Origin: Synergistota bacterium
GTDB taxonomy: Bacteria; Synergistota; GBS-1
Direction: 5' to 3'
Length of the DNA stretch: 30,747 nucleotides
Assembly (NCBI GenBank): GCA_025060595.1
Contig: JANXBX010000017.1
Location: 1-30,747 of the forward strand
In this document: positions 9,705 to 27,615 of the stretch, piece after piece
How the letters are laid out: each line of letters opens with the position of its first letter
Numbering within the stretch: position 1 is the stretch's first letter
Program-made: the position numbers and the translations under genes
The notes under the pieces: model-generated
What the model was told of the DNA's origin: nothing
Seen by the model: the letters and a program-made list of their open reading frames with translations, nothing else
The model's database searches: none

Positions 9705-10436
9705 TTAAAAGCTATTATACCTCTTTAAGGCCTCTTCGGCTAACGGTATATCCTCAGGGGTGTCTACCTCAACGCTTTCATAAAAGACCTCTACCAGCTT
9801 TATCCTATATCCGTTCTCTAATATTCTAAGTTGTTCCAGAGATTCAATCCTCTCAAGGTATGTAGGCTCCCATGAGGTGAAGGTAAAGATAAACTCCCTT
9901 CTAAAAACATATGGGCCTATGTGCTTATAATAGATGGCCCCTTTATTCCTCTCATAGGGAATTGGAGAGCGAGAAAAGTACAAAGCGTTATAGTTCTTAT
10001 CAAATACCACCTTTACTACATGTGGAGAAAGTATTTCTGTTTCTCTTTCTATCTTCTTACAAAGAGTGGATACCTTAGCTAAAGGATCCTCAAGCAGGGC
10101 TTTAATAGCCATGTCTATCGCCTGAGGGCGGATCGTCGGATCATCCACCTGAAGGTTAACAACTATATCACAATCAATTTCCTTAGCGACCAAAGCAACC
10201 CTGTCAGTACCAGAAGCGCAATTAGACGGTGTCATAACAGCCTTAACTCCATAGCTTAAGGCTAAGCCCATTACTCTCTCATCATCGGTAGCAACTATAA
10301 CTTCGCTTAAAAGAGAGCTTCCTAGAGCTCTATCTATTACATGAAGGAGAAGCTCTTTTCCAAGAAGCTTAACCAAGGGCTTACCAGGTAAGCGAGTTGA
10401 GCCATATCTTGCAGGTATGACAGCTATAGCTTTCAA
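9705..10436 (-). CDS. kdsB: 3-deoxy-manno-octulosonate cytidylyltransferase
   Basis: Activates Kdo with CTP to give CMP-Kdo, the donor for the inner core of LPS, in the cytoplasm. It is 243 aa, typical for KdsB. The N-terminal nucleotide-binding signature is VIPARYGSTRLPGKPL, and other family motifs are ATDDERV, CASGTDRVA, NLQVDDP and the C-terminal VEVDTPEDIP. The start is TTG in a TTGA overlap with the lpxK-fusion stop, preceded by AAAGGGGGAAAGG; no ATG upstream fits the family's N-terminus. Together with kdsC in the same operon it shows Kdo use, although no Kdo transferase gene (waaA) is in this window. Confidence 0.95.
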   Translation of the reverse strand: MKAIAVIPARYGSTRLPGKPLVKLLGKELLLHVIDRALGSSLLSEVIVATDDERVMGLALSYGVKAVMTPSNCASGTDRVALVAKEIDCDIVVNLQVDDPTIRPQAIDMAIKALLEDPLAKVSTLCKKIERETEILSPHVVKVVFDKNYNALYFSRSPIPYERNKGAIYYKHIGPYVFRREFIFTFTSWEPTYLERIESLEQLRILENGYRIKLVEVFYESVEVDTPEDIPLAEEALKRYNSF

Positions 10437-12562
10437 AAGCCTTTCCCCCTTTCTCCCTTTAAATAAGAAATGAGCTTCTCAAGTGCCCCTTTCTCTCCCA
10501 TCCTTTTTTTACCTTCTCTACTCATCTTTTCATAAACTTCCCTGTTCTTTAAGATATTATACAGCGCCTCCCTTAACGCTTGAGGATCATAGGGGACTAA
10601 AACCTCTGCTCCCCCTAAAAGTTTTTTCTGAATTCTCTTCCCTTTATCATCCACGCTAACTACAGGTTTACCAAGACCAGCAGCTTGTTGGTTAGCGGTC
10701 CCAGCAAGACCAAGGACAACCGTAGAAGATGAGAGCGCATCCCCAAGCTCAAAGGTTATAAATATTTTAGCATCTCCCTTTCTTAAGGCCCCCCAGAAGG
10801 GCGGGTTTTCTTCAGTAAACTGCCAACCTACCGATAAGGCTATCTCTCTAACCTTCTCAAGCTTAATAGAGGACGCAGGAATCATCAAAAATCCAAGCTT
10901 ACCGTTAGATTGGGTCAAAAGGTAAACGGTTTCAAGAAGCATCGGAAGATCTCTATAGGCTTGTTCCCTGCTCCCAGGAAGGATAGCCACTATCGGAGAA
11001 TCAAGGGATAAGGTTATCCCCTTTATATCCAAGGCATCCATTATAGGATTGCCCCAATAAAAGGCCCTTACGCCTCTTTTAGAAAGCTCTTTTGCGGTCT
11101 CCGGATCTCTAGTTAAAACTATCTCACACCATTTCCTCAAGAAATGCTTCTCAAAGGAGAAGTAGCCACGTATATAAACTGTCTTAGCAACGCCAAGGAA
11201 GACAGGCCTTACCCCTAAGGCAAATCTCGTAAAGGCTACAAGAAAGAAATCCCCTATACAGATATACTTATCGAAGTTCCTCTGCCTCCTTAAAGCCTTA
11301 AACTGCCTCCATAATATTTTGATAAGACCAGCCTTTATATCCCTTAAAAGATCCCTAAAGTAATATTTGACTATACCACCGCTTGGAAGAATAGCAGGAG
11401 GAGAAAGAACGGGAACGGTAAAGGTTCGACCGTCTCCAACCAGAGGAAAGGCATAAGGTTTAAACCCTTCCTTCTCAAGAAGATGACAGAGTTTAGTGGC
11501 TATAGCATCCTCTCCATGCCCATTTGATAAAACCAAAACCTTATATGTTAGAGCCTCTTCTACTCTCTTCCAGAAACTCTCGCTCTCATTAAGCTCGAGC
11601 TCAACTTCGCTAACGAGAAATGGAATAGAAGGCTTAAAATTGGGTGGCATGTTAACCTCATCCTTAGATGTGGTAACTATAAAATTAGCCCCTATGGAAA
11701 GGGCCTCCCTTTCAACCTCCCTTAACTCTTCCTCGCTATATCTATGGTGATCAGGGAAGAAGCGGGCAAAGCTCACTTTAAGACCCACACTCTCCAAATG
11801 CTTCACGAAAGATTCCGGATTTCCTAAAGCGCAAAGCGCATAAACAGGCTCACCTTCAAGCCAAAGCTTTTTCGCCCCAAAGAGCTCTCTTAAGCCGGTC
11901 GCTTTGTAGTCAGCGGTAAAAATACAGGCCCGAGGATTAAGCCTCCTTAAGGTAGCTTTAAGCTCCTTCAAGATAGAGGTAGATACCATTGAAGCCTTGG
12001 TAATTACTATCACATCCGCTCTTAACAAGGCTAAAGGAGGCTCCCTTAAAAGCCCTTGAGGAAGGAGCTTTCCTCCCCCAAAGGGATCTAAAGCATCTAT
12101 TAATACTATGTCCAAATCTCTTTTGAGAGGACGATATTGAAAACCATCATCAAGTATAAGAACCTGAGCCCCTAAAAAGCTTACAGCAAATCTTCCGGAA
12201 AAAAGCCTATCCTTACCCACTAATACAGGAACTCCCCTGAGGCTCTTAGCGAGAAGATAGGCTTCATCCCCTGCCTCAAGAGCATCTAATATCACTTTTC
12301 TGCCATCGCTCACTAAGCCAAAGCTCCCTTCCCTTTTACCCTTGTAACCCCTGCTTAATATGGCAACCTTATGGTGAAGAGAAAGCCTTTTTGCAAGGTA
12401 AAAAACAAAAGGGGTCTTACCGGTCCCACCGCTTGTAATATTTCCTACAGAGATAACCTTAGCAGGTAGCTTTTCCGAGGATAGAAGCTGAGCATCGTAT
12501 AAAAAGTGATATGTTCTTGAAAGAAGCTCGTAAATTGAAGATAGAAGAAACTTAAGGCTCAA
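10433..12562 (-). CDS. lpxK: Fusion: tetraacyldisaccharide 4'-kinase LpxK + LpxB-like glycosyltransferase domain
   Basis: At 709 aa this is about twice the usual LpxK length. Residues 1 to ~335 are LpxK, which phosphorylates the 4' position of the lipid A disaccharide. It has an N-terminal amphipathic helix, a P-loop in GNITSGGTGKTP near 40-51, and the motifs LILDDGFQYRPLKRD and PDHHRY. Residues ~338-709 form a complete second module related to lipid-A-disaccharide synthase (GT-B fold), opening LVLSNGHGEDAIA, with GNPIMD, ILPGSREQAYRDL and GLAGTANQQAAGLGKP. It resembles the LpxB-related proteins of unknown function found in cyanobacteria and Deinococcus. One continuous frame joins both halves. 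The start is TTG after GGAGGGAG, overlapping the asnB-like gene by 11 bp. Activity of the second half is unknown. Confidence 0.92.
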   Translation of the reverse strand: MSLKFLLSSIYELLSRTYHFLYDAQLLSSEKLPAKVISVGNITSGGTGKTPFVFYLAKRLSLHHKVAILSRGYKGKREGSFGLVSDGRKVILDALEAGDEAYLLAKSLRGVPVLVGKDRLFSGRFAVSFLGAQVLILDDGFQYRPLKRDLDIVLIDALDPFGGGKLLPQGLLREPPLALLRADVIVITKASMVSTSILKELKATLRRLNPRACIFTADYKATGLRELFGAKKLWLEGEPVYALCALGNPESFVKHLESVGLKVSFARFFPDHHRYSEEELREVEREALSIGANFIVTTSKDEVNMPPNFKPSIPFLVSEVELELNESESFWKRVEEALTYKVLVLSNGHGEDAIATKLCHLLEKEGFKPYAFPLVGDGRTFTVPVLSPPAILPSGGIVKYYFRDLLRDIKAGLIKILWRQFKALRRQRNFDKYICIGDFFLVAFTRFALGVRPVFLGVAKTVYIRGYFSFEKHFLRKWCEIVLTRDPETAKELSKRGVRAFYWGNPIMDALDIKGITLSLDSPIVAILPGSREQAYRDLPMLLETVYLLTQSNGKLGFLMIPASSIKLEKVREIALSVGWQFTEENPPFWGALRKGDAKIFITFELGDALSSSTVVLGLAGTANQQAAGLGKPVVSVDDKGKRIQKKLLGGAEVLVPYDPQALREALYNILKNREVYEKMSREGKKRMGEKGALEKLISYLKGERGKGF

Positions 12563-14426
12563 AATACTCCCTCCACCAATATTCTAAAACAAGAAGAAGC
12601 CATATTCTGTGAGCTTCGTTACTTTTCCCATCTATATGATATTCAACTATCTTCTTAACGGCATCAAGCCTTAAAAGCCCACCTTTAACAAGCGCTCCAT
12701 CATAAAGGGAACCCCTTAAGAAGGGAACCAGCTCACCTCTAAACCAGTGCTCTAAGGGGACGCCAAAACCCATTTTACCTCTATTTAATATCTCTTCTGG
12801 AAGGATGCCTTTTAGAGCCTTCTTAAATATGTACTTAGTCTTAAGCCCCTTAAGCTTAAGATTTGGGGGGATACGAGCCATCCTTTCCATGAAGATATGA
12901 TCTAAAAGGGGAGATCTGCCCTCCAAGGAAAAAGCCATAGTAGCCCTGTCCATCTTAACGAGAAGGTCCTCCGGAAGATAAGACCTTACTTCAACAGCAA
13001 GAAGCCTATCTATCCCGCTAAGGTTTGAAAATCTCTCAAAAAGCTCTCTTAAATAATCCTCACCAGGATACTTTCTATCTTCCCAATTCGAACCTAAGAC
13101 CTCATAGAAGTCCTCTTTCTTAAAGTAGGACATGCTTCCATAGTAAAAATAGAAGGAATCGCTTGATGATAGAAGCTCCAAGAACTTCCTAACCTTTCTT
13201 AAAAGACCTCTCCTCTTAGTGAGAGGGATTATTCTTCTTACGCCACCTAAAAGCCTAAAGCCAGGGATAGAAAGAAGCTTCTCCGATAAGATAAATCCTA
13301 TGTATCTTTCATAGCCTGCAAAGTTTTCGTCTCCCCCGTCACCATTTAATATGACTTTTACGGATCGCGAGGCCTCTCGAGATATGTAAAGAGAGGGAAT
13401 GGCTGATGAATCTCCAAAAGGCTCATCATAGTACTTTATTATCCAGGGAAGCGACTCCTCAAGGTTTGGAGAAACTATGAACTCCGTGTGATCTGTTGAA
13501 AACCTATCAGCCACTATCCTTGCATATTTTCTCTCATCATAATCGCTCCAGGTAAAACCAACGGAATAGGTCTTAACCTTAGAAGCGAACTCGCTTGCGA
13601 AGGCGGTAACGGCGCTCGAATCTATCCCGCCGCTTAAGAAAACGCCAAGAGGAACATCACTTATCAAACGGAGCTTAACCGATTCTCTCAAAAGCCCCCT
13701 TATAACTTCGCACCATTCCTCCTCAGATAGGCCCTCTTTGATCTCATAGCTTATATCCCAATATTTTTGAGGGGCGCTTACTCCCTTACGATCGACCACT
13801 ATGAAGCTTCCTGGAGGAAGCTTATTTATCCCTTTAAAGGCACTTAATGGAGAGGGAATATAACCCAAGGAAAGATAGTAGTTTAAGGCTTCGAAGTTCG
13901 GTTCACACGGTATAGAAAAAGCCTTAACTAAAACCTTAGGCTCAGAGGCAAAGGCGAAAAACCCATTTTGAATGGTATAGTAAAGGGGCTTTTTACCAAT
14001 TCTATCTCGAGCAATAAAGAGAGATCCGTTCTCCTTGTCATAAAGGCAAAAGGCAAACATACCCCTTAACCTCTCCAAAAGGGATATACCCCTTTCCTTG
14101 TAAAGAGCCAAGATGACCTCGGTATCGCTTCTCGTTCTAAAACTATAGCCTTTCTCCCTTAGTCTCTTTCTCTCCTCAAGAAAGTTATATATCTCTCCGT
14201 TAAAGACTATCCAGAGCTTCTCCTCCTCATCGCTCATCGGCTGATTAGCGGATTGTGATAAATCTATTATCGAAAGCCTCCTATGCCCTAAGGCAACATG
14301 CCTATCGAAGAAAACCCCTCCAGCGTCAGGGCCTCTATGACGAAGACACTCCCCAGCCCTCTCAAAGCTCTCAGGGTCCACCCTAAGATTGCCGCTTAAG
14401 CTAAAGATCCCATATATTCCGCACAT
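12552..14426 (-). CDS. Asparagine synthase-like glutamine amidotransferase
   Basis: A 624-aa two-domain enzyme. The N-terminal class II glutaminase begins MCGIYGIF with catalytic Cys2, and RHRGPDAGG follows. The C-terminal ATP-dependent synthetase domain has the PP-loop LSGGIDSSAV near 262-271, with KYYDEPFGDSSAIPS and MDRATMAFSLEGRSPLLDH. It uses glutamine-derived ammonia to amidate a carboxylate. It could simply make asparagine (AsnB), but its place between msbA and lpxK suggests amidation of a sugar acid in LPS, as proposed for WbpS-type proteins of O-antigen loci. Start ATG, 8 nt after GGGGAGG. Fold and chemistry are secure; the substrate is inference. Confidence 0.9.
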   Translation of the reverse strand: MCGIYGIFSLSGNLRVDPESFERAGECLRHRGPDAGGVFFDRHVALGHRRLSIIDLSQSANQPMSDEEEKLWIVFNGEIYNFLEERKRLREKGYSFRTRSDTEVILALYKERGISLLERLRGMFAFCLYDKENGSLFIARDRIGKKPLYYTIQNGFFAFASEPKVLVKAFSIPCEPNFEALNYYLSLGYIPSPLSAFKGINKLPPGSFIVVDRKGVSAPQKYWDISYEIKEGLSEEEWCEVIRGLLRESVKLRLISDVPLGVFLSGGIDSSAVTAFASEFASKVKTYSVGFTWSDYDERKYARIVADRFSTDHTEFIVSPNLEESLPWIIKYYDEPFGDSSAIPSLYISREASRSVKVILNGDGGDENFAGYERYIGFILSEKLLSIPGFRLLGGVRRIIPLTKRRGLLRKVRKFLELLSSSDSFYFYYGSMSYFKKEDFYEVLGSNWEDRKYPGEDYLRELFERFSNLSGIDRLLAVEVRSYLPEDLLVKMDRATMAFSLEGRSPLLDHIFMERMARIPPNLKLKGLKTKYIFKKALKGILPEEILNRGKMGFGVPLEHWFRGELVPFLRGSLYDGALVKGGLLRLDAVKKIVEYHIDGKSNEAHRIWLLLVLEYWWREYFEP

Positions 14427-14429
14427 AAC

Positions 14430-16166
14430 TTAAACCTCCCCATTTCCTCCCTGAAGCACATAGAGCCTCCAGTATAAACCCCTCTTTTTAAGTAGCTCCT
14501 CATGGCTTCCCTCCTCAACTATTCTTCCATCATTTAAAACTATTATCCTGTCAGCACAGCGAAGGGTAGAAAGCCTATGAGCCACAAAAAAGGTAGTTCT
14601 ACCCTTCATAACTCGCTCTAAGGCTTCCTGAACCAGCTTTTCAGATTCGCTATCTAAGGCGGAAGTAGCTTCATCAAAAACGAGTATCCTCGGGTTTCCA
14701 AGAATAGCCCTTGCTATAGCTATCCTCTGCCTCTCTCCACCAGATAGGGTAACTCCCCTCTCTCCAACTATCGTATCATATCCGTTGGGGAGCTTCATTA
14801 TGAAATCATGGGCGTTAGCGATTTTCGCTGCCTGAACTATCTCTTCAAAGGTAGCATTAGGCTTTCCATAGGCGATATTCTCCCTCACGGTGGTAGCAAA
14901 GAGCACGGTATCCTGAGAAACTATACCTATCTGTCTTCTTAAGCTATCAAGCTTTACCTTCCTTATGTCTATACTATCTATTAAAACCACGCCCTCAGTG
15001 GGATCATAAAACCTAGGTATAAGATCAACCAAGGTGGTCTTACCGGATCCGCTTGGGCCAACCACACCGATAACCTCTCCAGGTTTAACCTTCAAGTTTA
15101 TATCTCTTAAGATAAGCTCATCCCCATAAGAAAAGCTTACCCCCCTAAACTCTACCTCTCCCCTTATTTCAGGCATATCTATAGCATCTTCATGCTGGGG
15201 AACCTCAATAGGTATCTCCATGAACTCAAATATCCTATCGGCTGCAGCCAGAGCCTGCTGCAACCTACCGAAAACTGCGGAAAGCCCCTTTAACGGAGTA
15301 ACTATCATGGCTACATAACCCAAAAATGCTACAAGCTCACCAGGGGTAAGCTTTCCCTCTATAACCTTCCTTCCGCCATACCAGAGTAAGAATATCGTGG
15401 AAGCCGCAGCAACCAACTCAACGGTAGGAGAAAGCATCGCTCTGAGCTTAGCGCCCTTTAAGGAAGCCCTTAAGCTTCTTACATTAGCCTCCTCGAACCT
15501 TTCCACCTCTTTGTCAGAAGTGGCAAAAGCCTTAACCACCTTGATGGCTCCTATAACTTCGCTAGCTATAGAGGTAAGGCTTGAAAGGCTATCTTGAATC
15601 TGTCTGCCAAGCTTTCTCATCTTCTTACTATATTTTTCTATGAGAAAGGCGGTTAAAGGTAAAAGAGAAACGGAGATCAAGGAGAGCTCCCAGTTTATAT
15701 AAAAAATGAAGGCTATTATTCCAATAACGGTAACGGCCCTAATAACGAAGTCAACCACAGCATAGGTGAGAGTTTGTTCAATCAAAGCTATATCGTTAGT
15801 TAACCGAGATATTATGTTTCCCCCTCTTTCTCTTGTGAAAAAGGATAAAGACAAGTGAGACAGATGCTTCCAAAGCCTGTTTCTTAAATCGAAGACCAGC
15901 TTCTGAGCCACATAAGCCATAAGATACTCCTGCCCAAAGGAGAAGAGCCCCTTAAAAAAGTAGATACCTATACCAAGAATACAAATAAGATTAAGCATCT
16001 TTAAGTCCTTCTCCATAAGGACTTTATCTATCATATCCTTAACAAGCCATGGAATAAGTAAGGATAGACCAGCTACAGCAAGCATACAAAGCAAAGCTAA
16101 TACTATACGAGAGATATAAGGCCTTATAAAGCTAAGAACTCTCTTAAGACTCTTTCTATTTTCCAT
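14430..16166 (-). CDS. msbA: Lipid A export ABC transporter MsbA
   Basis: A 578-aa ABC exporter half-transporter acting as a homodimer to flip lipid A-core across the inner membrane. Six membrane helices occupy residues ~15-310. The nucleotide-binding domain has Walker A GPSGSGKTT near 369, signature LSGGERQRIAIARA near 472, Walker B ILVFDEATSALD and the switch His in FVAHRLS. Location among lpx genes supports MsbA rather than a drug exporter. ATG start, overlapping the upstream lpxB-like gene by 43 bp, and separated by 3 nt from the asnB-like gene that follows. Confidence 0.93.
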   Translation of the reverse strand: MENRKSLKRVLSFIRPYISRIVLALLCMLAVAGLSLLIPWLVKDMIDKVLMEKDLKMLNLICILGIGIYFFKGLFSFGQEYLMAYVAQKLVFDLRNRLWKHLSHLSLSFFTRERGGNIISRLTNDIALIEQTLTYAVVDFVIRAVTVIGIIAFIFYINWELSLISVSLLPLTAFLIEKYSKKMRKLGRQIQDSLSSLTSIASEVIGAIKVVKAFATSDKEVERFEEANVRSLRASLKGAKLRAMLSPTVELVAAASTIFLLWYGGRKVIEGKLTPGELVAFLGYVAMIVTPLKGLSAVFGRLQQALAAADRIFEFMEIPIEVPQHEDAIDMPEIRGEVEFRGVSFSYGDELILRDINLKVKPGEVIGVVGPSGSGKTTLVDLIPRFYDPTEGVVLIDSIDIRKVKLDSLRRQIGIVSQDTVLFATTVRENIAYGKPNATFEEIVQAAKIANAHDFIMKLPNGYDTIVGERGVTLSGGERQRIAIARAILGNPRILVFDEATSALDSESEKLVQEALERVMKGRTTFFVAHRLSTLRCADRIIVLNDGRIVEEGSHEELLKKRGLYWRLYVLQGGNGEV

Positions 16167-17164
16167 GATGCTCCCGGGCCTCCCACTATTTCCGGAAGTC
16201 TAGCTCTCATCCTCCTTAAAGGTTCCTCTTCCTCCTTAAGCCTGGCTATCTCCAAGGCCACATCTTTTGGAGAGAATTCCCCCACCATCTCTGGAACAAT
16301 CCTTTCTCCAGAGAGCCTGTTCGGCCAAGAAAGAAATTCCTCCCTCCTTAATAGGGCCTTAAGTAAAAGGAACTTAAGGCTTTTCCCTAAAAGAGGAAAG
16401 CTCGACAATAAACCATAAAAGCCTGACACGGGAACAAGATCAAGGAAAGAGAAGGGAAAAAGAAGAAGCATGGGCGTTCCTAAGGCCGCAGCCTCAAGGG
16501 TATTTGTTCCAGGAAGTGTCAAAAGAAGATCTGAAGCAGAAATGACAAGCTCTGGTGAAGCTTCCGGAAGGAAAGAGGGCTCTTTCTCCGGGATGAAGGG
16601 CGACCTTCCCACCAGGAAGTAAATATCCCTTGGAAGAAAGGATATCATCTTCTCAAGAAACTCCGAAGCCCTCCTCCAAATAGGAAGCCTGCTTCCAGGG
16701 AAGATACCTAAGAGAAATTCATTATTGATCCTCAAAACCTTCCTAGCCTCCTCGCGAGAAGGATAGTCACAAACTCTATCGGAAGATAAGCTACCTACTA
16801 TAAAAGCCCTTTTACCTCTTAAACCCTTTCGAATACCGTCATAAGGCAAAAGATAAGCATCATAAGCGAAACTAAAGTATCCTCCCAAGCCAAAGCCATA
16901 TCTTAAGAGAGGAACCCTATAGCGTATCTTCTCTTTCCATCCCCAAAAAGCATCCCCACCAAGCTGAAGAATTATATTGGGCTTTCCATCCCCATTAAAC
17001 TTAAGCCCTTCCGTAAAGGCCACATACTTTTCATAACCGCTTGAAAACTGACACGGAAGGATCTTAAGATAGACCTCCCATCCTCTCTTTTCCAAGTTCC
17101 TTGCAAGAGGAAGCCCCCAAGAGTAAAGCTCCCCAGGCCCATTAGCTAAAAGAAGTAACCTCAT
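16124..17164 (-). CDS. LpxB-related glycosyltransferase (second copy)
   Basis: A 346-aa GT-B-fold protein distantly related to lipid-A-disaccharide synthase. It opens MRLLLLANGPGELYSWGLPL, and carries GIFPGSRLPIWRRASEFL and TLPGTNTLEAAALGTPMLLLFP, the counterparts of the LpxB ILPGSR and SGT..E motifs. It lacks the GHPL.D motif of the true LpxB next door; a GSLSSDRV segment is at that place. It follows lpxB with a 23-bp overlap and precedes msbA, so it probably acts on lipid A or a related glycolipid before export. Not recognised as a characterised enzyme; the substrate is unknown. It is closer in its opening motif to the domain fused to LpxK than to LpxB. Confidence 0.75.
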   Translation of the reverse strand: MRLLLLANGPGELYSWGLPLARNLEKRGWEVYLKILPCQFSSGYEKYVAFTEGLKFNGDGKPNIILQLGGDAFWGWKEKIRYRVPLLRYGFGLGGYFSFAYDAYLLPYDGIRKGLRGKRAFIVGSLSSDRVCDYPSREEARKVLRINNEFLLGIFPGSRLPIWRRASEFLEKMISFLPRDIYFLVGRSPFIPEKEPSFLPEASPELVISASDLLLTLPGTNTLEAAALGTPMLLLFPFSFLDLVPVSGFYGLLSSFPLLGKSLKFLLLKALLRREEFLSWPNRLSGERIVPEMVGEFSPKDVALEIARLKEEEEPLRRMRARLPEIVGGPGASWKIERVLREFLAL

Positions 17165-18239
17165 TTAATATCAGGCGAGCGATCCTCCCTATCGCCCCCC
17201 TCTGTCCCAACCTCCCTCTTATAAGGCTTATCTTCTCCTTGACTTTTCGAAGCTCACCCTCATCTTCAAGCCATATTCGAAGCCTCCCTATGATCTCCTT
17301 GGGATTAGCCTTACCTTGAATGAGCTCCGGATAAAGCTCCTCACCCAACATTATGTTTGGCATCGATATGAACCTAGCATTAACTAATATTTTATAAAGA
17401 ATATAATTTATATGGTTCGCTCTGTATATTATAACCGCTGGTTTCTCGTATATTAGAGACTCAACAGCTATGGTCCCAGAAGCCGCTAAAACGAAGTCGC
17501 AAGAATTAAGTAGAACGTAAGAAGGAACTTCATAAAGGTTGGAAACCCCATTATAAAGTTCCAAAGGGAGATTCTTAACCTTGGAGAATAAGACATCTCC
17601 ATGCCAGGAACAAGCCACATCAAGCATAATGGGTAAAAGGTATTCCACCTCTTTCCTTCTGCTGCCAGGAAAACAAGCCAAAACGGGTCTCTTTAAATCT
17701 CCTTTAACTCCCTCAACAGATCCTTGAGGGAGGATATCAAGCAAAGGATGCCCTAAGAAGTAAGCTCTTACCCCTCGAAGGCTATACCACTGGGCTTCAA
17801 AGTCAAATAGCGTGATCACGAAATCACAATATCTTCTTATGATCTCCGCTCTTTCGCTTCTCCATATCCAAGCCGTGGGAGGAATAAAGTATATGATTTT
17901 ACCTTTATAACCCCTTTCCCTTAAAGCCTTAGCAAACCTCAGGTTAAAACCGGGGGAATCGACAAGAATAACAGCTTGAGGAAAGAAGCGCTGAACCTCA
18001 AGCAAAGACCTATTAAAGAGCTTCCAGAGCTTCCTAATATTCAGTAAGACATCTACAACCCCCATTATACTGAGCTCAGATATATCAGCTATAGATCTAA
18101 AAAAGGAAAGCGTATTAGTGTTAGGCCCCCCTATCCCTAAAACCTCAAGCTCCTCAGAGATAAGCTTCTTTAGCTCCCCTAAGAGGTGAAAGCTATAGAT
18201 GTCTCCAGAGAGCTCCCCTGTAAATAGCGCTAACCTCAA
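17142..18239 (-). CDS. lpxB: Lipid-A-disaccharide synthase
   Basis: Joins UDP-diacylglucosamine and lipid X to form the lipid A disaccharide at the inner face of the inner membrane. It is 365 aa. Family motifs include TGELSGD at the N-terminus (AGEASGD in relatives), IYFIPPTAWIWRSERA, FLGHPLLD, FPGSRRKEVEYLLPIM and AASGTIAVESLIYEKPAVIIYRAN. The start is TTG in a TTGA overlap with lpxI. Of the three LpxB-like modules in this operon, this one carries the canonical motifs and is next to lpxI, so it is the true LpxB. Confidence 0.94.
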   Translation of the reverse strand: MRLALFTGELSGDIYSFHLLGELKKLISEELEVLGIGGPNTNTLSFFRSIADISELSIMGVVDVLLNIRKLWKLFNRSLLEVQRFFPQAVILVDSPGFNLRFAKALRERGYKGKIIYFIPPTAWIWRSERAEIIRRYCDFVITLFDFEAQWYSLRGVRAYFLGHPLLDILPQGSVEGVKGDLKRPVLACFPGSRRKEVEYLLPIMLDVACSWHGDVLFSKVKNLPLELYNGVSNLYEVPSYVLLNSCDFVLAASGTIAVESLIYEKPAVIIYRANHINYILYKILVNARFISMPNIMLGEELYPELIQGKANPKEIIGRLRIWLEDEGELRKVKEKISLIRGRLGQRGAIGRIARLILNEVTSFS

Positions 18240-19030
18240 GAGGAAACCCCCACAAGGGCGATATTGCCCTCCGAAGCTATCCTTAAAACCTCCTCTTTAT
18301 CAAGGATAACGGTCATGCCAGCTTCAACCGCAAGGCAGGATGCTTTCACATCCCTAAGAAGCTTAAGAGTATCTGCCCCAATAGTAGGAAGATCATATCT
18401 TGGGTCTTGACCCTCTTTTATTACCTTTACAACCACGATGCCCTCGCCACCATATCTTGCTCCCCTCTTTATAGCCTCATCGGTTCCCTCTATGGCTTCA
18501 ACAGCTAAAACGGCCCCCTTCTTTAAAACGACGGTCTGACCGAAGCTCATCGCCGCCATCCTCTTAGCTATGTTAAATCCATAGGATATATCTCTCCACT
18601 CCTCGGGTGTGGGCTCTCTAGAACCAAAAGAGCCCTGAGGAGCAAGCATATCTTTCACCAATGTTCTATAATCGCCTATCTTAAATCCTTCCCTCTCAAA
18701 AAGCTCGACAAGCCTCCCTAATACCTCATGATCACTTTTATCCTTAAGAGAGCTTAAAAAGGCTAAGCTTTTAGAAGTAAGCTTTGATGGATCGAATATC
18801 CAAGTCTTGGGAACTTTACCCGCTAAAAAGACAAGCTTCACTCCTCTGCCTTTAAGGAAAGATATCACCCCTTCGATATCCGCATTCTGCATGAGAAGAT
18901 CAACCTTAAGGCTTCTATCAACATCTCCTAAACCTACAACCACAGGTTTAGGTTGAAGCCTTTCATAGATAAAAAGAGGAAGCCTTCCTTCACCAGCTAT
19001 AAGACCTATCACGTCGGTGCCCTCAAACAT
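18236..19030 (-). CDS. lpxI: UDP-2,3-diacylglucosamine pyrophosphatase LpxI
   Basis: Hydrolyses UDP-2,3-diacylglucosamine to lipid X and UMP, the step done by LpxH in E. coli. It is 264 aa (DUF1009/LpxI family). The N-terminal domain opens IGLIAGEGRLPLFI. The C-terminal catalytic domain includes LAPQGSFG, VLKKGAVLAVEAIEGTDEAI, YDLPTIGADTLKLL and CLAVEAGMTVILDKEEV, all typical of the family. ATG start with GGAGGGG upstream, overlapping the lptF-like gene by 22 bp. No LpxH homologue is seen in the window. Confidence 0.93.
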   Translation of the reverse strand: MFEGTDVIGLIAGEGRLPLFIYERLQPKPVVVGLGDVDRSLKVDLLMQNADIEGVISFLKGRGVKLVFLAGKVPKTWIFDPSKLTSKSLAFLSSLKDKSDHEVLGRLVELFEREGFKIGDYRTLVKDMLAPQGSFGSREPTPEEWRDISYGFNIAKRMAAMSFGQTVVLKKGAVLAVEAIEGTDEAIKRGARYGGEGIVVVKVIKEGQDPRYDLPTIGADTLKLLRDVKASCLAVEAGMTVILDKEEVLRIASEGNIALVGVSS

Positions 19031-24132: not shown

Positions 24133-25242
24133 TCACAATCTACCTACCACCCTTAGGAAGAACCTTTCATCCTCATGGGTGGAATAGGTAAATTCAACTC
24201 TAACCCAGGAACCAAACCAGTAGGAATAGGATAGCTCTATTCCTCCATCCTCATCCCAATATCCAGCTTGAAAGTTAGAGTATCTTAGAAAGAAGAAGTT
24301 TTCTCCCTCAGAAAAGCTGCGCTTATAGCCTATCCAAAGCTTAGGTCCAACCCTAAGCTCTATCCCTAAAAAGCTTTCTAACTTTATGCTTTCAAGAAGA
24401 GCCTTCACCTCTACATAAACTTCCCCTTCCTTAAAGACCTTACCGAAGTGAAGAACACCTTCAGGCTCAGCATCCTTTAACCCCACAGGGATCCTCCCTT
24501 CGGCGATTATCGACCAAACTCTCGACTCAAGGCTAACCACCATGGTAGATATCCTACCCAGGTAAAGCTCAGGAGACAGATCAACCCTATAAAAGGTAAG
24601 AGCCTTGGATAAGGATGCCCTCTTAACAACAAGGTCCTTAAAGAATTTCTCATGATGCTTAACAAACGCTATAGGTAGACCCTCCATGAGCTTCACATTA
24701 GGCAGAAACTCCTTTCTTAAACCCCTTAAAACTATATTGGGGACCGTTCTCGACCTCAACACTAAATCCACAGACAATACCACTGGGTCCTCCCCTCTTA
24801 AAGATACCTTTACCAAAAGGGCCTCAGGTAAAAAAATCAGTGATAAATAAGCACTATAACCCGGAAGAAGGGCGGAAATCTCCTTTTTCACCTCTAAAGA
24901 GGCAACCTCTTGAACCCAGTCCAGGGACTCAACAGGTAAACCTTGAAACAAAGAAACGACCTTATTTCCAAGCTTCTCATAAGGAACTTTATATAGGGGC
25001 TCTATCTCAGGAGGAAACCTTTCCGGAGAGAAACTTAAAAACACCTTATCCACTAAGGGAAAGATAGGTTCAAAAGATACCTTAATATACCCCTCCTCAA
25101 AGATAAGCTCTCTAACCTTATAACCCGGAAAGAGCTTTGGCAAAACGCCTTTAATTACCGCTTCCCTACCTGGAACCCCCTTTACCTCCTGAGCTATCCT
25201 CCTAATTACAGCTGAAACCGCCTCGTGTAAAAAGGAGGGCAT
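24133..25242 (-). CDS. Unknown exported protein between bamA and ompH (conservative ATG start)
   Basis: I do not recognise this protein. From the ATG at 25242 it is 369 aa, but the reading frame stays open upstream and encodes a signal peptide (separate entry), so the true product is probably ~400 aa and exported. The mature N-terminus, INKITIEGMPSFLHE, resembles the opening strand of a POTRA-like fold. The rest is beta-rich with few helices. The C-terminal third alternates aromatic and polar residues (GGIELSYSYWFGSWVRVEF) and ends FFLRVVGRL, suggesting outer-membrane beta strands. Position between bamA and the skp-like gene suggests a part in outer-membrane assembly. The fold and role are inference. 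Confidence 0.7.
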   Translation of the reverse strand: MPSFLHEAVSAVIRRIAQEVKGVPGREAVIKGVLPKLFPGYKVRELIFEEGYIKVSFEPIFPLVDKVFLSFSPERFPPEIEPLYKVPYEKLGNKVVSLFQGLPVESLDWVQEVASLEVKKEISALLPGYSAYLSLIFLPEALLVKVSLRGEDPVVLSVDLVLRSRTVPNIVLRGLRKEFLPNVKLMEGLPIAFVKHHEKFFKDLVVKRASLSKALTFYRVDLSPELYLGRISTMVVSLESRVWSIIAEGRIPVGLKDAEPEGVLHFGKVFKEGEVYVEVKALLESIKLESFLGIELRVGPKLWIGYKRSFSEGENFFFLRYSNFQAGYWDEDGGIELSYSYWFGSWVRVEFTYSTHEDERFFLRVVGRL

Positions 25243-27030: not shown

Positions 27031-27615
27031 CTACCTCCCTCCCGTAAGATAAATCTTAAACTCCTTTCTCCCAAGCTCTATCAACCTAAACAGCTCTTCC
27101 GCCGAAAGAGCGTGATTTTCCTCAACCTTAGTAAGCTTCGCTTCCTCCTTAACCTTCACCTTCTCTTTGCGAACCACATACAATATATGAGCATCAAAGC
27201 TCTTTATATTATAAAGCCCAATGCGTCCTTCGCAATAAGCGGTAAAAGTTATCCGAGGAAGATTAATCGAAAAATTAAGCCTTCCTGGGATACCTAACGC
27301 TAAGCGATGTCCAAAACTCGGGGAAATATTAAGCTCTTGCTCAACCCTTTGAGAGACCTCCATATAGGGATAGGAAACCAAGGCTAAAACCAAAAGAATC
27401 GTAAGGAAGCTTACCTCAAAGACAACCCTTAAGGGGCTCTTCTTAAGCTTTAAAGCCCTCTCCCATTCCCCCTTATGCAGAGCTCTTATTTCGGCCTCGG
27501 CCAAGGATAAACTTAAAAAGCCCTCTTCGCTTTTACCCTGAAGATAGGCTTCCTCCGCCTTTTCAAGCCACCTTTTGGCAAACTTTATCTTTTTTACTAC
27601 CCCCTTCTCACCCAT
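27031..27615 (-). CDS. Unknown single-pass membrane protein next to sigma factor (possible anti-sigma)
   Basis: A 194-aa protein I do not recognise. Residues 1-60 are charged and helical (FAKRWLEKAEEAYLQGKSEE), like a short helical-hairpin domain. A single hydrophobic segment spans ~63-84 (VVFEVSFLTILLVLALVSYP) and is preceded by KLKKSPLR, so by the positive-inside rule the N-terminus is cytoplasmic. Residues ~88-194 would then be periplasmic, beta-rich, then charged. It starts 10 nt after the sigma gene stop and ends 7 nt before bamA. A cytoplasmic helical domain plus one membrane helix plus a periplasmic domain, directly after a sigma gene, is the layout of membrane-bound anti-sigma factors; no known anti-sigma signature was recognised. 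Confidence 0.75.
   Translation of the reverse strand: MGEKGVVKKIKFAKRWLEKAEEAYLQGKSEEGFLSLSLAEAEIRALHKGEWERALKLKKSPLRVVFEVSFLTILLVLALVSYPYMEVSQRVEQELNISPSFGHRLALGIPGRLNFSINLPRITFTAYCEGRIGLYNIKSFDAHILYVVRKEKVKVKEEAKLTKVEENHALSAEELFRLIELGRKEFKIYLTGGR

Follow-up and report, generated by a model that had tools for sequence, protein, structure and literature searches.

What does a glycosyltransferase do when it is joined, in one polypeptide, to LpxK, the tetraacyldisaccharide 4'-kinase that phosphorylates lipid A? The question is raised by a gene in the 30,747-nucleotide stretch of DNA analysed here (the window), and it concerns lipid A synthesis, which is among the best-known bacterial pathways. 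The original prediction had placed a single 709-codon frame at 10433-12562, encoding a full LpxK followed by an LpxB-like module. We could confirm this frame and assign it to the minus strand: it begins with TTG and runs for 709 codons with zero internal stops, while stops are abundant on the plus strand across the same interval. Family matches to both halves, together with the preserved catalytic residues of LpxK, likewise bear out that a full LpxK is fused to a GT-B domain of the LpxB superfamily. The gene and its parts are as follows.

10433-12562, minus strand: fused gene, 709 aa, LpxK plus TIGR03492 GT-B domain (open reading frame, family matches)
11552-12562, minus strand: LpxK half, residues 1-337, N-terminal helix first (TIGR00682, PF02606, alignment to 4ehx)
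10433-11551, minus strand: TIGR03492 glycosyltransferase (GT) half, residues 338-709, GT-B fold (TIGR03492, AlphaFold2, PDB matches)

It had been considered that a stop or frameshift near 11545, or two separate genes in relatives, might lie behind the apparent fusion. Upon inspection of the frame, neither a stop nor a frameshift was found near 11545. We searched 61 genomes, the window's own and 60 relatives from the same phylum, probably Synergistota, and found both halves in a single match within one stop-free open frame in 55 of them. In a 56th genome (G039), one 926-aa frame contains both halves, in two pieces; the remaining genomes are incomplete or gave partial matches, of which several lie at contig ends. 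With an uninterrupted fused frame in at least 55 of the 61 genomes, an artefact of assembly, sequencing or frameshift is ruled out. The fused protein is only 36–44% identical to most relatives, so the architecture has been kept over a long divergence. The fusion is common to the whole phylum and not a local feature.

The two halves are joined without a linker. Across 27 aligned sequences, the GT domain's first strand follows directly on the last LpxK helix, with almost no indels; given this essentially constant junction length, a flexible linker is absent. In a predicted model of the full-length protein, the LpxK half was unreliable (mean pLDDT 69, pTM 0.60), so that the domain arrangement is not readable from it.

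Both halves were then compared with known enzymes. Residues 8-328 match nearly the whole lpxK model TIGR00682 (model positions 2-311 of 324; 214 bits, cut-off 92), the Pfam LpxK model PF02606 scores 268 bits against a cut-off of 27, and residues 7-280 align with the Aquifex aeolicus LpxK structure 4ehx. The P-loop GGTGKT of the original prediction is present at residues 45-50. These are the catalytic sites of the LpxK half:

12413-12430, minus strand: Walker A GGTGKT, residues 45-50, with K49/T50 corresponding to A. aeolicus K51/T52 (alignment to 4ehx)
12263-12268, minus strand: D99-E100, corresponding to A. aeolicus D99/E100 (4ehx alignment; invariant among aligned relatives)
12146-12151, minus strand: Walker B D138-D139 (4ehx alignment and aligned relatives)
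11747-11749, minus strand: H272, corresponding to A. aeolicus H261 (4ehx alignment and aligned relatives)

In the A. aeolicus enzyme, D99 pairs with H261, the proposed proton acceptor, and E100 is a Mg ligand; catalytic roles of the Walker A Lys and Thr and of the Walker B residues are described in the same study (PMC6286764). Its main catalytic residues are all kept in the 4ehx alignment (K49, T50, D99, E100, D138, D139, H272), and so are the lipid-contacting R71 and R119. At a third lipid-contacting position, H143, the window's family has Tyr, and most of the other relatives have His. Apart from this substitution, the protein differs from known LpxK by its extra C-terminal GT-B domain of 370 residues. 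We infer from the sequence that the LpxK half is an active kinase. Beyond the window's family, every aligned relative carries GGTNKT in place of GGTGKT, an unusual Walker A change beside the catalytic Lys.

The second half belongs to a less familiar family. Residues 343-701 match TIGR03492, named "lipid-A-disaccharide synthase-related protein", a curated family without assigned function (234.8 bits, cut-off 219.2, model positions 1-392 of 396). The Pfam LpxB model (PF02684) reaches 13.9 bits, under its cut-off of 22.6, and a search of the GT half with the LpxB model TIGR00215 gave no match. AlphaFold2 predicts a confident GT-B fold (pLDDT 89.6, pTM 0.87), whose structural matches in the PDB are non-hydrolysing UDP-GlcNAc 2-epimerases, WaaA, LpxB and other GT-B enzymes, including UDP-sugar enzymes. 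GT-B enzymes and these epimerases share one common fold. The epimerases were the top matches (3ot5, Z 26.9), though all GT-B enzymes are close, and there is also a weak Epimerase_2 match of 23.4 bits. One could thus imagine an epimerase like WecB/MnaA that supplies a sugar to LPS synthesis. However, the Epimerase_2 score lies below the cut-off (30.6), the wecB model yields 19.3 bits against 210, the LPGSR motif is placed as in LpxB-type transferases, and the sequence models name TIGR03492 or LpxB. There would also be little benefit to an epimerase in being tethered to a membrane lipid kinase, and we consider this explanation very improbable.

A profile comparison with hhalign relates the GT half to LpxB at 97.9% probability and aligns the LPGSR and GT motifs, whereas the N-terminal half of the domain is not aligned residue by residue. 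The following motifs were identified:

11507-11527, minus strand: SNGHGED, residues 346-352, family motif opening the GT half, at the place of LpxB GExSGD (alignments)
11249-11251, minus strand: D438 within the GD motif, possibly the catalytic base (motif position like that of LpxB D98)
10967-10981, minus strand: LPGSR, residues 528-532, corresponding to LpxB L197-R201 (hhalign and alignments)
10685-10702, minus strand: GTANQQ, residues 621-626, with T622 corresponding to LpxB T277 (hhalign and alignments)

The fused proteins have the SNGxGED, PSGG, GD, LPGSR and GTA motifs in common with the standalone TIGR03492 proteins of cyanobacteria and Bacillota. With LpxB, the lipid A disaccharide synthase (GT19, PF02684; E. 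coli structure 5w8n), they share the GT-B fold, the LPGSR phosphate loop, the GT threonine and a probable Asp base. In E. coli LpxB, the LPGSR and GT-motif positions hold the UDP phosphates, R201 is essential and D98 is the catalytic base (PMC5785501). D438 is invariant in fused, Bacillota and cyanobacterial TIGR03492 members and may be the equivalent base; since hhalign left that region unaligned, the correspondence is drawn from motif position. D438, LPGSR and T622 are retained at 37-44% identity to most relatives.

The most prominent change concerns residue 625. Q625 lies three residues past the GT threonine, at a position like that of MurG E269, which binds ribose (PMC5785501). It is Gln in all 31 fused copies examined, as opposed to Glu in 14 of 14 Bacillota and 47 of 47 aligned cyanobacterial copies (30 cyanobacterial rows with a gap at this position were left out of the count). 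Glu at 625 is our own observation and stands outside the curated family definition; because the curated model is passed, Gln would appear to mark a subgroup of TIGR03492. The position of the LpxB ribose-binding Glu, E281, is taken by Q626 or by a hydrophobic residue in fused copies, so an E281 equivalent is missing. Two more positions are specific to the fused proteins: D538, where other members have N, and K642, where they mostly have P.

The exchange in all 31 fused copies means that GT activity was possibly lost or changed. Together with D538 and K642, and with the fact that LpxK and KdtA alone suffice for lipid A in other phyla, it would fit a GT half of lost or weakened catalysis that serves LpxK as a lipid-binding, membrane-docking or regulatory module. 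Yet NGxGED, D438, LPGSR, T622 and N624 are invariant in fused copies at about 40% identity, which is beyond the needs of a scaffold, and the usual companion of the family, LpxB2 (see below), persists in 60 of 61 genomes as well. Such a module therefore seems to us rather unlikely. To the earlier concern that the domain might lack a usable nucleotide-sugar site, the answer is divided: the LPGSR loop, the threonine of the GT motif and the putative base have all been retained, whereas every fused copy examined has Gln in place of the expected ribose Glu. Judged by these residues, the site is largely intact yet systematically altered, and activity is likely, not certain.

The surroundings of the fused gene are those of a lipid A operon:

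18236-19030, minus strand: LpxI (Pfam match)
17142-18239, minus strand: LpxB, separate and intact (family match; E9, S11, D94, PGSR191-194, T256 and E260 all present)
16124-17164, minus strand: LpxB2, another LpxB-like GT, showing the motifs FPGSR and PGTNTLE (sequence comparison)
14430-16166, minus strand: MsbA-like lipid A exporter (named from orthologues in the Bacillota loci L050/L051)
12552-14426, minus strand: AsnB-like amidotransferase, lying between msbA and the fusion (family match)
9705-10436, minus strand: KdsB (CMP-Kdo synthesis), directly downstream of the fusion (family match)

LpxI acts at the step preceding LpxB. Given the distant LpxB homology of the GT half, the fused protein might replace LpxB, first making the disaccharide and then phosphorylating it. 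We reject this reading as exceedingly improbable: the window encodes a full LpxB whose catalytic residues are all present, and LpxB was found in 60 of the 61 genomes of the phylum. The presence of KdtA in all 61 also rules out that the GT half is a missing Kdo transferase. LpxB and KdtA being in place, the GT half is an additional transferase. The LpxB-like character of the second module thus holds as distant homology and GT-B fold; it is not LpxB, and a second LpxB activity is very probably absent. With a TIGR03492 domain here and the true LpxB elsewhere, the proposed substrate channelling from LpxB to LpxK loses its basis.

In most of the window's phylum, the gene order is lpxA-kdsC-lptG-lpxI-lpxB-lpxB2-msbA-(fusion)-kdsB. 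Deep diderm Bacillota (L050/L051) show lpxA-lpxI-lpxB-lpxB2-msbA-...-TIGR03492-...-lptG, and both of these genomes are without LpxK. In most loci compared, the slot after msbA is filled by lpxK in an LpxK-positive Bacillota locus (L175) and by TIGR03492 where Bacillota are LpxK-negative; in the window's phylum the fusion takes this place. This shared slot suggests that TIGR03492 works at about the stage of LpxK. Among the loci compared, the AsnB insertion was confined to the window's family and seen in the window and L156; an extra gene between msbA and the fusion also occurs in a few other relatives. The AsnB-like enzyme might amidate an LPS uronic acid. Two further frames of the window, 24133-25242 and 27031-27615, lie beside skp and bamA and have no Pfam or NCBIfam match.

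Next, we looked at TIGR03492 outside the phylum. The best 80 of 308 confirmed TIGR03492 loci from a genome scan comprise 77 cyanobacterial loci, two Bacillota MAGs and one locus (L049) that alone has LpxK in frame and is apparently a contig of the window's relative G003. Among these 80, no fusion was therefore found outside the window's phylum. None was seen in the Bacillota sample either, where TIGR03492 open frames measure 381-638 aa; LpxK matches from a plasmid search were all unfused, and scans of viral contigs gave no match. Among 199 sampled Bacillota-type genomes, 29 were tallied above the TIGR03492 cut-off. Two full copies per genome were found in G252 (C1:388915-390054 and 1079136-1080290) and in G074 (C25 and C75), so the family can be duplicated.

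We tested 45 Bacillota-type genomes for LpxK and KdtA: 30 TIGR03492-positive ones (G062 counted in) and 15 negative ones with an LpxB-like match, the latter chosen by weak cross-match. LpxK occurs in one of the 30 positive and 10 of the 15 negative genomes, and KdtA likewise (1/30 vs 10/15). The near-exclusion has a Fisher p of about 1e-5, a value that ignores kinship and may reflect perhaps two or three independent events. In the Bacillota-type genomes tested, TIGR03492 is a marker of LPS producers that lack LpxK and KdtA. The sole genome with all three, unfused, is G258, either a genuine exception or perhaps a mixed assembly. Cyanobacteria possess lpxA, C, D and B only, and their LPS is without Kdo, heptose and phosphate (PMC3087551). 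The named control genomes fit this pattern: among them, LpxK and KdtA were found together only in E. coli, Caulobacter and Bacteroides. TIGR03492 was above its cut-off in two controls, the matches named being Synechococcus elongatus, Deinobacterium chartae and, weaker, Bacteroides ihuae. A search of D. chartae with the LpxB model gave no match, so the acceptor of the family need not be lipid A. Of the groups sampled, the window's phylum is the only one in which TIGR03492 and LpxK regularly occur together, and there they form one chain. Its proteins thus differ from standalone TIGR03492 in the fusion to LpxK, in Gln for Glu at 625 and in their coexistence with LpxK and KdtA.

This distribution bears on a further possibility, namely that the GT half acts after Kdo addition as an ordinary inner-core transferase and was fused as an operon neighbour, the two reactions being uncoupled. 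KdtA and KdsB are indeed present and, in many relatives, encoded close to the fusion. Three Bacillota genomes (G091, G206, G236) moreover carry KdtA and LpxK in one open frame of 828-856 aa, so that neighbour fusions around LpxK do happen. As in the window, LpxK and a lipid A-stage glycosyltransferase share a frame there, but the GT is KdtA/WaaA (GT30) and is placed before LpxK, not after it. On the other hand, TIGR03492 occurs mainly in genomes lacking KdtA, which argues that its usual acceptor is not Kdo-lipid A, and it sits by msbA and lpxB, outside any core-sugar cluster. We regard an inner-core role as unlikely.

LpxB2 has a parallel distribution. Strong matches (E below 1e-70) were obtained in 30 of 30 TIGR03492-positive and 1 of 15 negative Bacillota-type genomes (Fisher p about 1e-10, kinship ignored). 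LpxB2 is also present in 60 of the 61 genomes of the window's phylum and in all 14 cyanobacteria tested; in family f2 its gene lies away from the lpx cluster. TIGR03492 and LpxB2 look like one module.

Taken on balance, we give about an even chance to a bifunctional enzyme, at once kinase and glycosyltransferase, from which the lipid A disaccharide would receive both a phosphate and a sugar before export by MsbA. The fused protein would be a membrane-associated enzyme of late lipid A synthesis, whose TIGR03492 half would use a nucleotide-sugar donor to glycosylate the very lipid that LpxK phosphorylates. Since glycosylation of the 4'-OH would compete with LpxK, the acceptor is more likely another position, or a sugar already there that was perhaps placed by LpxB2. 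The linker-free joining would keep both active sites at one lipid-bearing membrane face, just before MsbA export. The added sugar of the original prediction is the best-supported function. The analysis establishes the fusion with its conservation, the fold, the key motifs, the operon slot and the distribution; activity of the GT half, its donor, the acceptor position and any coupling of the two steps are what we infer. As a more tentative and less probable extension, TIGR03492 and LpxB2 may represent two undescribed post-LpxB steps of a Kdo-free, LpxK-free lipid A finishing in cyanobacteria and deep diderm Bacillota. The window's phylum would then run both routes, with the fusion as their physical link.

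In the literature searched, which leaves out most subscription journals, we found no description of the fusion, of the near-exclusion pattern or of a function for TIGR03492, and nothing useful on the lipid A of the window's phylum. How bacteria without LpxK and a Kdo transferase, such as cyanobacteria, finish their LPS is unexplained there as well. Both halves are named families; what is new within that literature is their fusion and the near-exclusion pattern. The phylum-wide LpxK-GT fusion ties TIGR03492, an orphan family that elsewhere nearly excludes LpxK, to lipid A maturation. It points to an undescribed step in the building of the outer membrane and offers a direct way to test the function of TIGR03492.
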